A stretch of DNA of 64,000 nucleotides, taken from Brachyspira pilosicoli P43/6/78 (GTDB lineage Bacteria; Spirochaetota; Brachyspiria; Brachyspirales; Brachyspiraceae). The position numbers and the translations under genes are program-made. Location: assembly GCF_000325665.1 (NCBI RefSeq), contig NC_019908.1:310001-374000 (forward strand). The letters are read 5' to 3'. Position 1 is the first letter of the stretch, and every line of letters begins with the position of its first letter. Positions 22,201 to 27,479 of the stretch are shown piece after piece. Below the pieces are notes generated by a model. That model did not search any database. It was not told the origin of the DNA and saw only the letters and a list, made by a program, of their open reading frames with translations.

Positions 22201-25021
22201 TAAAGGCCCCATATCTATAATATAATCAGCACATTTAATAACGTCTAAATTATGCTCTACAACTAAAACAGTATTTCCTTTTTCAACAAGTCCGTCTAAT
22301 GCTTTTAATAATTTCTTTATATCCTCAAAATGAAGTCCTGTAGTAGGCTCATCTAATATATATAAAGTGTTTCCTGTAGATACTTTATGAAGCTCGCTTG
22401 CTAATTTTATTCTTTGAGCTTCTCCTCCTGAAAGTGTAGTTGAAGGCTGACCTAATTTTATATATCCAAGTCCTATATCTTCCATTATTTTTAATATTCT
22501 TGTAATAGAAGTGATGCCATCAAAAAATTCTATTGCTTCAGATACACTCATTTCAAGAACATCATAAATAGTTTTGTCTTTATATTTAACGTCTAGAGTT
22601 TCTGCATTAAATCTCTTTCCACCGCATTCTTCGCAAGGCACTAACACATTTGAAAGAAATTGCATTTCAAGTTCTATAACTCCAGCACCTTCACAAGTAG
22701 GACATCTTCCTATTTTTACATTGAATGAAAATCTGCCTTTATCATATCCTCTCATTTTAGCAAGTTTAGTAGCTGCAAATAAATCTCTTATAGGCGATAA
22801 AACTTTTGTATAAGTTGCCGGGTTGCTTCTCGGTGTTCTTCCTATAGGTGACTGATCAACTTCTATAACCTTGTCAATATTTTCAAGCCCTTCTATTTTT
22901 TTATGGCTTCCAGGATTTAAACTCTTACCATAAAAATGATTATGCAATGCACGCATTAAAATATTTTCAACTAAAGTAGATTTACCGCTTCCAGAAAGTC
23001 CTGTAACTACAATAAATAAACCCAAAGGAAACTCAACATCTATGTTTTTAAGATTAAATTGATTAGCTCCAATTACTTTTAAAAATTTTCCGTTTCCTTC
23101 ACGTCTTTGTTTAGGAATCTCTATATCATCATCGCCGCGTAAATATTTGGCAGTATATGATTTATCAGATTTTATAAACTCTTCATAATCACCAATGCCA
23201 ACAACTTCACCGCCATTAACTCCAGCATTAGGACCTATATCGATTAAATAATCCGACTCTTCCATTGTCTCTTTATCATGCTCTACAACTATGACGGTAT
23301 TATTTTTATCTCTTAATGTTTTTAATGATTCAATTAATTTTTTATTGTCTGATTGATGAAGTCCTATTGAAGGCTCGTCAAGTACATATAATACACCTTC
23401 AAGTCCGCTTCCTATTTGTGATGCTAATCTTATCCTTTGAGATTCTCCGCCTGAAAGAGTAGGGGAAGAACGTTCTACTGTTAAATAAGTAAGTCCAACT
23501 TTCACCAAAAATGTTAATCTATAAATAATTTCTTTTACTATAGGAGCACCAATTACTTCTTCATTTGGTTTTAATTTTAATTTAGTGAAATAATCATATA
23601 AATCTTCTATAGTCATTGAAGAGAAATCTGCTATAGTTTTGCCGTTAAACTTTACTGACAAAGCATCTTCATTAATTCTCTTACCCTTACATTTAGGGCA
23701 TTCAACTTCGTCCATAAAATTAGCATAATAACTATTTTTATAAGTTTCATAATCGTATTTTAATCTGTCTAAAATTCCAGGAACTCTCTCTTCTACCATT
23801 TTGCTATGATACCAAAATCTTTTTCTCCATTTTACTTCTTTATCAGTACCATAAAGTAAATATTTCTTTTCTGTTTTAGTTAAATCTTTCCAAGGCTTTT
23901 TTAAATCTATTTTGTAAGTTTTGGCAATAACTTCTAGTTCATCAGTACCATACTCCATATCAAAACCTATATGGTCATCTACAAAACAAGATAAAGCCCC
24001 TTCATAAATATTTAAATTCTCATCTTTTACAATATGTTTTTCAGTGAATACATGTTCAACTCCAAGTCCACCGCAAACAGTGCATGCTCCCATAGGGTTA
24101 TTAAATGAAAATAAATTAGGCTCAATATCAGCAATAGAGTGCCCGCAGTTTGCACAAGACCTTTCAGTTGTATAGAGTTTATAATACTTATCTATCTCAA
24201 ACTGCTTGCTCATTTTTTATTTTTTTCTTTTTTGTTTTTGTATCTTCTTCAGCATTTTCTGGAGTTTCTGTTTCTAATACTTCTTCACTTTTTTCATGTT
24301 CTTCATAGAATGCTACTAAGCCTTTTGTTATTCTTATGGCTCTCTCAATATCATCAGTGATTCTTGACAAGTATTTATCTTCTACTTTTATCCTGTCAAT
24401 AACTATTTCTAATGTATGCTTCTCATATCTTTTAAGTTCTGGTATTTCATCTTCATCAAATTTATAAACTATATTATCTATTCTTATTCTAGGATATCCT
24501 GCAAGTTTTACTTCTTCAATTTCTTTTCTATACTCTCCCTTTCTATCTCTTACAATAGGGGCGAGAACTAAAATTCTTTTTTGAGCAAACTCTCTCAAAA
24601 CACTTTGTGCAATTTGGTCTTCACTTTGCTTAGAGATTTTATGTCCGCATTTAGAGCAATATGGTACTCCAAGCCTTGCAAAAAGAAGCCTAAAAAAGTC
24701 ATAGATTTCTGTAACAGTGCCAACAGTAGAACGAGGATTTTTATTTACGCTTTTTTGGTCTATAGAAATAGTAGGAGATAATCCTTCAATATGTTCAACA
24801 TCAGCCTTAGCCATAACACCCAAAAACTGTCTTGCATAAGCTGACAATGATTCTAAATATCTTCTCTGTCCCTCTTTAAAAATAGTATCGAATGCAAGAG
24901 AGCTTTTCCCGCTTCCTGATACTCCTGTCAAAGTAGTGAGGGTTTTATGAGGTATTGAAAGTGATATATTTTTAAGGTTATGCTCTTTAGCACCTCTTAT
25001 TTCTATAGAATTATTAGCCAT
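19204..25021 (-). CDS. uvrA: Double-length UvrA excinuclease subunit, frameshifted
   Basis: One reading unit of about 1,940 residues made of two complete UvrA copies. Part 1 (24197-25021) carries the first Walker A GVSGSGKSS; part 2 (19204-24213) continues at the zinc module CANCGHS and adds three more Walker A motifs near its residues 408, 754 and 1381 and four signature motifs (LSGGE three times, FSGGE once), plus CxxC zinc modules. A Lys-rich linker near residue 710 joins the copies. UvrA finds bulky DNA lesions and loads UvrB; it normally works as a dimer of about 940-residue chains, so this is a covalent dimer, a form also known from Chlamydia. The parts are out of frame by one base in A runs at 24213-24233. 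ATG at 25021 has AAGGAT ahead. Confidence 0.88.
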
Positions 25022-25120
25022 TAATTTATCCTTATAAAAAAGTTAAACCATTATAACATAATTTCTATATAAAAAAAGCCTTTATTGATATTAAATATTA
25101 ATAAATAATTTTTATTACAT

Positions 25121-25459
25121 TCCCCGCCCTTTTATATTTATTGCTTAAATTTGAACATAAAATTTTATTATTCTTCAAAATCACAAAAGAAAAAGCATAC
25201 CCGCCCAAGCTGTTTTTTAATTTAGAATTTTTACTATAAAACTAAATTTAAAATTTATCTATCGCACGCTGAATAAACTCAAAAAATATAGTTAGTTTAT
25301 AATTCAAATTTTATAAAGTTATAATAATAAACTAACCGTGCGTTAATATAGATTATAAATTTGATTAACACTAGGGTGGGGGTGCTTTTTCTAATTAAAC
25401 AGTAAGAAATAGTTAAGTAAAAAATTCAAAATAAAACAATAAATATAATAGGGCGGGGT
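25121..25459. repeat. Nested inverted-repeat element, about 340 bp
   Basis: Successive blocks pair across a centre near 25313: CCCCGCCC (25122-25129) with GGGCGGGG (25451-25458), together with adjacent TATATTTATTG and CAATAAATATA; AGAAAAAGCA next to ACCCGCCC (about 25189-25207) with GGGTGGGGGTGCTTTTTCT (about 25374-25392); CGCACG (25263-25268) with CGTGCG (25337-25342); GTTAGTTTAT (25291-25300) with ATAAACTAAC (25327-25336). There is no ORF inside. The whole gap 25022-25532 between uvrA and the reductase gene is taken up by this structure. Confidence 0.75.
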
Positions 25460-25532
25460 GTGTGAATAAAGTTAAAAAAGGCTTTATAATATATTTCTAT
25501 ACTATAAAGCCAATAGGGAATTATGAATTGTA

Positions 25533-27479
25533 TTATATGTCTAAAGCAGCATGATAGCCCCAATAAACCGCATTTGTTATTGTAGCAACTTTTGCAGCAT
25601 CACCAATCACTCTTACAAATGGAGCTGTGTCTCTTAATTTTTCAACAGTATCAGTACAAGATTTCTGCCCTAATGCACATATCACACTAGTTCCTTTAAC
25701 CAATACTTCTTTATTGTCTTTATCTACGCATAATATTCCATCTTTTCTCACTTCTATTCCTTTGTATCCAGTATGAACTGTAACATATTTGTCAACTTCT
25801 TTTAAAAGTAAAGGTCTGTGTCTTACATTGGCATCAGGTGCAAGTTCATCTCTCATTTCTACAAGATGTACTTTTTTGCCTTCCATTCCTAAATGTATAG
25901 CACATTCACAGCCTGCTAAACCGCCTCCAAATACAACAACATTATCAGTTACTTTATCTTTTTCTTTGTAGTAGTTATTTACTATTACAACATTGTCTCC
26001 ATCTAAACCTTTTATAGGAGGAACTAAAGGAGTAGAACCTACTGCGATTATTAATGCATAAGGATTTTCTTTTTCAACTAACTCTTTTGTTACTTCTGTA
26101 TTAGTACGAATTTCTACACCAGCTTTTTTTGCAAGTAATTCATAAGTATGAGATAAATCATACATTTCTTTTTTGAAAGGAAGAGCCTGTTCGCTTTTTA
26201 ATATACCGCCAACTTCTGATTCTTTTTCACATAATATAACTTTATGTCCTCTTCTAGCAGCAGTGTAAGCCGCATATAATCCTCCGGGACCAGCACCTGC
26301 AACTAACACTTTTTTGCTTTCTCTAGCAGGCATAATCTCAACTCCGTCAAGCTCTCTTCCTATTAGAGGATTAACAGTACATCTTCTTGTAGCAGTAGCA
26401 GCACGTTCAGCCATACAAGTAAAACATCTTAAACAATGTACTATCTCTTCATCTCTATTTTCCATTACTTTTCTAGGAAGTTCATGGTCAGCAAGCAAAG
26501 CACGAGCCATATAAACAATATCAGCCTTTCCAGAAGCAATAATCTCTTCCATTTGTTCAGGACTATTTAAAGCTCCTATAGTTGATACAGGTACAGAAAC
26601 ATGTTTTTTTATAGCCTCTGCTAAATATACATTACAACCATGTTCTTTAAACATAGAAGGGTGAGTGTCTCCAAAACCTCTTTGATAAGTACCAGCAGAA
26701 ACATGAAGTAAGTCCACATAAGGAGATATCTGTTTAGCTATCTCTATTCCTTCGTCTAAATCATAACCGCCGTCAAATAATTCTGAGCCGCTGAACCTAA
26801 ACTCTATTGGGAATTTTTCTCCAACAGCTTTACGTACAGATTGTAATACTTCTATTGCTAAACGGCATCTATTTTCTAAACTTCCGCCGTATTCGTCTTT
26901 TCTTTTATTGAAATAAGGAGAGAAAAATTGATTTAATAACCAGCCATGTCCGCCATGTATTAAAAGCATTTCAAAACCAGCTCTCTTAGCAAGTGAAGCA
27001 ACATTACCGTAAGCATCAACAATATCTTTAATCATTTCTTTTGTTAAAGATTTTACTTCTATACCGTCAGGACGAACAGTGTCAGAAGGACCCCATTGAG
27101 CCATACTTTGTTTTTTGCTTTTGTCTGTCATATATGTACCAGCATACATACCAGAGTGAGATAATTCTAAACTTGCTATTGAACCATGTCTGCGTATAGC
27201 GTCAGCAGTATAAGTAGCGGCAGCAAGTGAGTTTAATATTTTTGTATCTAAATGATAAGCATGAGAACCGTCTGTGTCAGGATGCACCATACATTCACTC
27301 ACTGTAACAGCACCAGCACCGCCTCTTGCTCTTAATTCATAAAATGCAGTAGATTTAGGTCCTATACAGCCATCATTAGTTATATCAGTTCCGCCCATTG
27401 GAGCTGAAAACATTCTATTTTGAAAAGTAACGCCTGCTATTGTTATAGGTTTACATAGATTAGGATATTTATGTTTCAT
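25533..27479 (-). CDS. Old-yellow-enzyme-type NADH:flavin oxidoreductase (BaiCD/dienoyl-CoA reductase family)
   Basis: The 648-residue protein has the three-part layout of 2,4-dienoyl-CoA reductase and bile-acid BaiCD/BaiH: an FMN TIM barrel (1 to about 340, with HGGHGWLLNQFFSPYFNKRKD), a 4Fe-4S module CLRCFTCMAE with a fourth Cys at RRCTVNP, and a flavin/NAD domain with VLVAGAGPGGLYAA and VVVFGGGLAGCECA. Such enzymes reduce C=C bonds conjugated to carbonyls, in the cytosol. Substrate unknown; unsaturated acids, enoate xenobiotics or steroids are options. It is probably co-regulated with the MFS transporter just upstream on the same strand. Confidence 0.85.
   Translation of the reverse strand: MKHKYPNLCKPITIAGVTFQNRMFSAPMGGTDITNDGCIGPKSTAFYELRARGGAGAVTVSECMVHPDTDGSHAYHLDTKILNSLAAATYTADAIRRHGSIASLELSHSGMYAGTYMTDKSKKQSMAQWGPSDTVRPDGIEVKSLTKEMIKDIVDAYGNVASLAKRAGFEMLLIHGGHGWLLNQFFSPYFNKRKDEYGGSLENRCRLAIEVLQSVRKAVGEKFPIEFRFSGSELFDGGYDLDEGIEIAKQISPYVDLLHVSAGTYQRGFGDTHPSMFKEHGCNVYLAEAIKKHVSVPVSTIGALNSPEQMEEIIASGKADIVYMARALLADHELPRKVMENRDEEIVHCLRCFTCMAERAATATRRCTVNPLIGRELDGVEIMPARESKKVLVAGAGPGGLYAAYTAARRGHKVILCEKESEVGGILKSEQALPFKKEMYDLSHTYELLAKKAGVEIRTNTEVTKELVEKENPYALIIAVGSTPLVPPIKGLDGDNVVIVNNYYKEKDKVTDNVVVFGGGLAGCECAIHLGMEGKKVHLVEMRDELAPDANVRHRPLLLKEVDKYVTVHTGYKGIEVRKDGILCVDKDNKEVLVKGTSVICALGQKSCTDTVEKLRDTAPFVRVIGDAAKVATITNAVYWGYHAALDI

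Follow-up and report, generated by a model that had tools for sequence, protein, structure and literature searches.

The stretch of Brachyspira pilosicoli DNA that we analysed (64,000 nucleotides; hereafter, the window) contains, between two genes, a whole copy of a repeat at positions 25108-25471. On one side lies uvrA (start at 25021, minus strand) and on the other a gene for an FAD/NADH oxidase (25533-27479, minus strand, with its 3′ end facing the repeat). The limits of the copy were taken from the end of the uvrA-side flank that it has in common with empty or rearranged relatives, and from the end of family similarity. The copy is two-armed (O-I-C / c-i-o, assigned to neither strand), and its six G/C-rich boxes form nested inverted pairs in AT-rich non-coding DNA.

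The left terminal tract (25108-25121, plus strand; family consensus TTTATTTACATA) leads into the outer box O, CCCCGCCC (25122-25129, plus strand), which was found in 9 of 9 aligned orthologs, barring one G for C and one centre change from G to A. The inner box I, CCCGCCC followed by AAG (25200-25206, plus strand; O-I spacing 78), had its CCC-CCC letters invariant in the nine orthologs, and its centre was G, A or T. The core box C, CGCACG (25263-25268, plus strand), was invariant in all nine. The core spacer (25269-25336, plus strand), defined from sequence and ortholog comparison, gives a C-to-c start distance of 74. Within it lie GTTAGTTTAT at 25291-25300 and, at 25327-25336, its partner; some orthologs lack this pair. 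On the minus strand follow core box c, CGTGCG (25337-25342), identical in 7 of 9 orthologs and with one change in the remaining two; inner box i, GGGTGGG (25374-25380), with GGG-GGG invariant in 9 of 9 and a centre of T, C or A; outer box o, GGGCGGGG (25451-25458), at its family position 77 bp beyond i with small shifts in orthologs; and the right terminal tract (25459-25471; family consensus (A)TGTAAATAAA). The spacer between I and C (25207-25262, plus strand) is about 26 bp over its usual length, the I-C start distance being 63 instead of the usual 37-38. Since a long I-C distance (63-65 bp) is common to the uvrA orthologs that retain both boxes, this oddity of the window copy is old.

A preliminary description of this DNA, made from the sequence alone, had reported a 340-bp element of G/C-containing blocks with inverted partners. 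Every block that it named was present (O/o, I/i, CGCACG/CGTGCG, and GTTAGTTTAT with its partner): CCCCGCCC pairs with GGGCGGGG, ACCCGCCC (the CCCGCCC of 25200-25206) with GGGTGGG, and CGCACG with CGTGCG. The extent given there was 25121-25459; the element is slightly longer, about 25108-25471. The preliminary description had seen no coding capacity and no clear target duplication; no open reading frame (ORF) of at least 60 amino acids overlaps the copy, and there is no target duplication at the window site. The window has a single occurrence of the O..I pattern, and 100 shuffles had none. The proposed folding potential is also real. The inverted arms (67 nt, from a repeat search) are 73% complementary, and the strand has a predicted folding energy of -104.9 kcal/mol as compared with -54.7 (sd 4.9) for shuffles (z -10.2; opposite strand, z -8.0). 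The pairing is imperfect, though, with a G-T centre in the I pair and the roughly 26 extra base pairs in the left I-C spacer.

The neighbouring uvrA is broken at 24197-24213 of the window into ORFs of 274 and 1669 amino acids. Most other Brachyspira have it as one open frame of about 1,940 amino acids, a tandem UvrA-UvrA fusion. The fusion seems to be genus-wide, and the break could reflect a sequencing error or a frameshift in this strain.

BLASTN with the window copy gave some 40 partial matches in its own genome (one contig of 2,555,556 bp) and matches in all 26 Brachyspira genomes, so that the copy-number check proposed at the outset found many copies in the genome and across the genus. 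The matches in three genomes (G001, G003 and G019) were weak and short, and strict patterns did not confirm them. A strict pattern searched in 84,980 species genomes found 70 matching stretches, all 70 of them in Brachyspira. Within the order Brachyspirales, the O-I-C arm was present in 23 of the 26 Brachyspira genomes and in 0 of 5 genomes of four other genera; the reversed control was also 0. When a strict core was defined as CGCACG-N66-69-CGTGCG, the complete genomes contained 48 (window's genome), 115 (G004), 89 (G007), 123 (G009) and 38 (G010) such cores, and reversed-sequence controls contained none. We found no published description of the family in the literature searched. The repeat family is thus previously undescribed and found only in Brachyspira. 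A viral, plasmid or phage origin was rejected, since searches of viral contigs, of PLSDB and of INPHARED gave no match.

Copies throughout the family follow one grammar. Its box types are O (CCCCRCCC), I (CCCRCCCAA) and C (CGCACG), with c, i and o as inverted partners, in the order O-78-I-37-C-74-c-36-i-78-o; the next unit is joined at o-42-O, so that units recur every 345-347 bp. The spacings, measured over 332 distinct arms, were tightly distributed: 77.5 (SD 1.1) for O-I, 37.4 (SD 0.8) for I-C and 73.9 (SD 0.9) for C-c. Within this spacing the modules combine freely into one-armed copies, two-armed copies or tandem arrays with a 345-bp period. Of the 157 distinct cores in a partly arm-selected sample, 107 were flanked by boxes on a single side, 39 on both sides and 11 on neither. 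A permuted form, C-c-i-o-O-I-C-c, is also present in G009. The element is polar, one arm tending to CCCGCCCAAG and AACGCACGGTnA and the other to CCCACCC(T/A)A and ACCGCACGCAGA. In genome G000 (C1:2494037-2495625, L113), an array of one-armed units has a period of about 233 bp, as compared with the usual 345 bp, in the register O-I-C-c followed by 47 bp to the next O.

The mean spacings are near half-integral numbers of helical turns (7.0, 3.5, 7.4 and 4.1, at 10.5 bp per turn). Helical phasing of the boxes is not proved, because neighbouring spacings fail to offset one another and A-tracts show no periodicity. Compensating spacer lengths were rejected when neighbouring spacings showed no correlation, as was A-tract curvature when a 10-11-bp periodicity proved to be absent.

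The repeats are intergenic. A profile search of 400 kb of G009, an element-rich stretch with 33 of its 123 strict cores, detected 44 clusters, none of which was inside an ORF; extrapolation from this element-rich stretch places the whole-genome total nearer 150 sites. Only 4 of the 157 distinct cores overlapped an ORF of at least 70 amino acids. Copies were found between convergent genes in 56 of 137 cases in an arm-chosen sample, as compared with 81 of 422 gene pairs in general, and in 12 of 44 as compared with 53 of 360 in the G009 stretch, where the sites were not arm-chosen. By eye, one element directly adjoins the presumed rnpB promoter region (L077, 1508-1800) and another lies near the 3′ end of 16S rRNA (L097, 1508-1770).

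Their distribution along the chromosome, from profiles that rest on samples, is uneven. In G004, a quarter of the chromosome (1.2-2.0 Mb) contained 83 of the 115 strict cores, and below 0.6 Mb there were none; in G009 and G007 the strict cores cluster in one half of the chromosome. The strict cores of G010 likewise cluster in one region. In the window's genome the positional bias was weak (Rayleigh p 0.05-0.13). A coarse skew sample placed the G004 cluster near a minus-to-plus switch, which is probably the origin side. Enrichment near the terminus relative to dnaA was considered and dropped, since oriC in Brachyspira is unlinked from dnaA (PMC3163572).

The copy upstream of uvrA has been inherited vertically in the genus. 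The same copy was found there in many species and was absent or replaced by other DNA in several. The uvrA-side flank is common up to AATAAATAAAT in loci with and without the element, and no species with both flanks of the locus but no element was found. It is as if the element marked a breakpoint-prone spot. By eye (L191-L214), the gene on its far side varies with the species: an oxidase, HPr, a methyl-accepting (chemotaxis-type) protein and others.

We compared 400 kb each of G004 and G006, in which the aligned DNA is about 87% identical and sampled gene flanks mostly 90-96% identical. About 30 element sites, which is most of them, were common to the two genomes at orthologous places. Several of these sites differed by approximately one or two 345-bp units (256/605, 813/467, 1029/694 and 754/441). 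One, perhaps two, sites were empty in one genome, leaving few clean empty sites to examine: no target duplication was visible at the apparent empty site, and at the second candidate the shorter genome still had a bare C-c core.

The same orthologs were used to compare box and spacer evolution. Between G004 and G006, 37 of 1156 box G/C letters had changed (3%) as compared with 580 of 2245 spacer G/C letters in the same elements (26%; Fisher p 5.5e-73). For the window copy and its nine orthologs, boxes had changed in 12 of 318 cases, spacer G/C in 215 of 433 and the centres in 15 of 36. A crude count had put the C boxes at 11.6%, as if boxes evolved like spacers; this figure was reversed by filtered, box-by-box counts, because misaligned or gapped boxes and the free centre base had been included. 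The low rate of change in boxes relative to spacers means that selection maintains the boxes of individual copies while the spacer DNA drifts, and therefore the repeat is unlike an inserted relic. Constraint was not equal among copies, the box changes being 7 of 764 in two-sided copies and 30 of 392 in one-sided copies. Within CCCRCCC, the centre base had changed in 20 of 69 cases, which is the spacer rate, and 19 of the 20 changes were transitions.

This pattern of nearly fixed G positions around a single centre that changes at the spacer rate, almost only by transitions, might bring to mind a half G-quadruplex: the GGG-Y-GGG of i and o on one strand, and of O and I on the other, would be conserved for four-stranded structures with a free pyrimidine loop. 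Each box, however, has just two G-tracts, and the next box is about 70 nt away. Such structures would also leave the C boxes and the fixed C-c distance unexplained, and we consider this reading very improbable.

A structured RNA or a DNA cruciform, as the preliminary description had suggested, would place the function in the long hairpin. The strong predicted fold (z -10.2) is in its favour. Two-sided copies, moreover, always carry inverted box pairs and are the most conserved, and an RNA would tolerate a G-U centre in the I pair. Conserved pairing should then appear as covariation between the arms of a copy. An unoriented covariation test is misleading because the two arms differ in type. In 44 oriented, non-redundant copies, two arms from the same copy did not complement each other better than arms drawn from separate copies did: the pairing was 0.552 as compared with 0.565 when permuted, and none of 500 permutations was lower. 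This slight deficit is likely explained by a strand-wide T/A skew, since within a copy the two arms agree in the T/A skew of a given strand (r 0.43, p 0.0009). Box centres combined without compensation. Arm lengths within copies showed no correlation for O-I and a weak one for I-C (p 0.05). One arm is missing from many copies, about two thirds of the sampled cores being boxed on one side only. Rfam gave no match in the window, and none up to E 1 over the element. The absence of covariation, the uncorrelated or weakly correlated arm lengths and the lack of an Rfam match together mean that the boxes, not the fold, are kept, and a function as a hairpin is therefore improbable. Of the refuting outcome that the preliminary description had named, a single copy without conservation of pairing in relatives, one half holds: the family is multicopy, yet no conserved pairing was found beyond the invariant boxes. 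The I-box centres of two-armed copies, read as CCCRCCC, are mostly one G and one A. These centres and the shared T/A skew may record strand-specific cytosine deamination.

A MITE or another remnant of a mobile element had also been proposed. In this case the repeat would be a non-autonomous element with long complex ends, its boxes serving as binding sites for a transposase that spread the copies and has since been lost or not been found. Part of the proposal holds: the family is dispersed, non-coding, multicopy and built of inverted repeats, it must have spread, and its arrays change in length. Copy numbers vary widely (three genomes without a strict match, and 38-123 strict cores in others), there are possible insertion differences between G004 and G006, and the same copy family is found beside different genes. 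Against this, individual copies at orthologous sites have kept their boxes, which are thus selected in place, and arrays begin and end at module borders. The one apparent empty site lacked a target duplication, and clean empty sites were few. There was no larger version with an internal gene among the loci examined, and no Y1/RAYT transposase partner in the 26 genomes. MITE ancestry of the family is possible; that the present copies are such elements we regard as doubtful.

The explanation that we prefer, with a probability of roughly one half, is a lattice of putative protein-binding sites on DNA that would resemble BIMEs in its working without being a REP or BIME. The Brachyspira-specific interspersed mosaic repeat would act as double-stranded DNA, presenting short G/C-rich recognition sites at fixed distances, with O and I in each arm and with C and c flanking a 68-bp core. 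We infer that the boxes are bound by a Brachyspira protein, which may be a nucleoid or topology factor, and that one multi-protein complex could form in intergenic DNA across the core and both inverted arms. The copies would have spread by a duplicative mechanism early in the genus and would now mostly stay put, and arrays would grow and shrink in 345-bp units by recombination between neighbouring units. One-armed copies, which are common and have less conserved boxes, speak against this DNA lattice, and some copies may thus have no function. The tighter constraint on two-sided copies would be expected, too, if the function (box-to-box pairing, for example) depended on the presence of the inverted partner. 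A stronger form of the lattice is rather unlikely in our estimate: a dedicated chromosome-organising system new to bacteria, in which a protein restricted to Brachyspira would recognise three distinct G/C boxes, at fixed distances, at up to about 150 sites, mostly in one region, and build symmetric DNA complexes whose units could be multiplied in 345-bp steps.

Brachyspira genomes are AT-rich, with an intergenic G+C content of 20.4% in B. intermedia (PMC3163572). Exact G/C boxes kept against this mutational tide in dozens to more than 100 intergenic places must do something. The family offers a defined target in a genus with poor genetic tools, namely the question of which protein binds CCCRCCC and CGCACG. 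In addition, its natural length-variable arrays could serve strain typing.

Several known repeat systems invite comparison. Integron attC sites were suggested by the arrays and by the change of neighbours at uvrA, and were set aside when inspection by eye recognised no attC-like R-boxes. ERIC sequences and the pneumococcal BOX elements also lie between genes, as imperfect palindromes or modular repeats 100-300 bp long, and by description the Brachyspira repeat resembles them. By description it is also set apart from them, as we know of no ERIC or BOX element with the O-78-I-37-C-74-c-36-i-78-o grammar. Like MITEs (e.g. PMC10969869), it is short, non-coding, dispersed and multicopy with inverted ends; unlike them, it has no target duplication seen and no parent transposase found in the Y1 family that was searched, and its boxes are selected in place in arrays of a fixed 345-bp period. 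REP units are stem-loops of 20-40 bp that carry a GTAG or CGTC tag and go together with RAYT transposases (PMC2817692). The unit consensus of the Brachyspira repeat lacks a short stem-loop of 20-40 bp with either tag, and a RAYT (Y1_Tnp, PF01797) was found in 0 of 26 Brachyspira genomes although control genomes were positive; a REP/RAYT origin was therefore rejected. REPs and BIMEs are known protein-binding sites, and a role in chromosome organisation has been suggested for them (Nunvar et al. 2010, PMC2817692); gyrase and IHF are examples of proteins that bind such elements. Like them, the Brachyspira repeat is a high-copy, lineage-specific mosaic in intergenic DNA, composed of short inverted modules whose orientation alternates. 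It differs from REPs in its unit of approximately 300 bp, in which boxes of 6-8 bp are separated by long spacers that drift.
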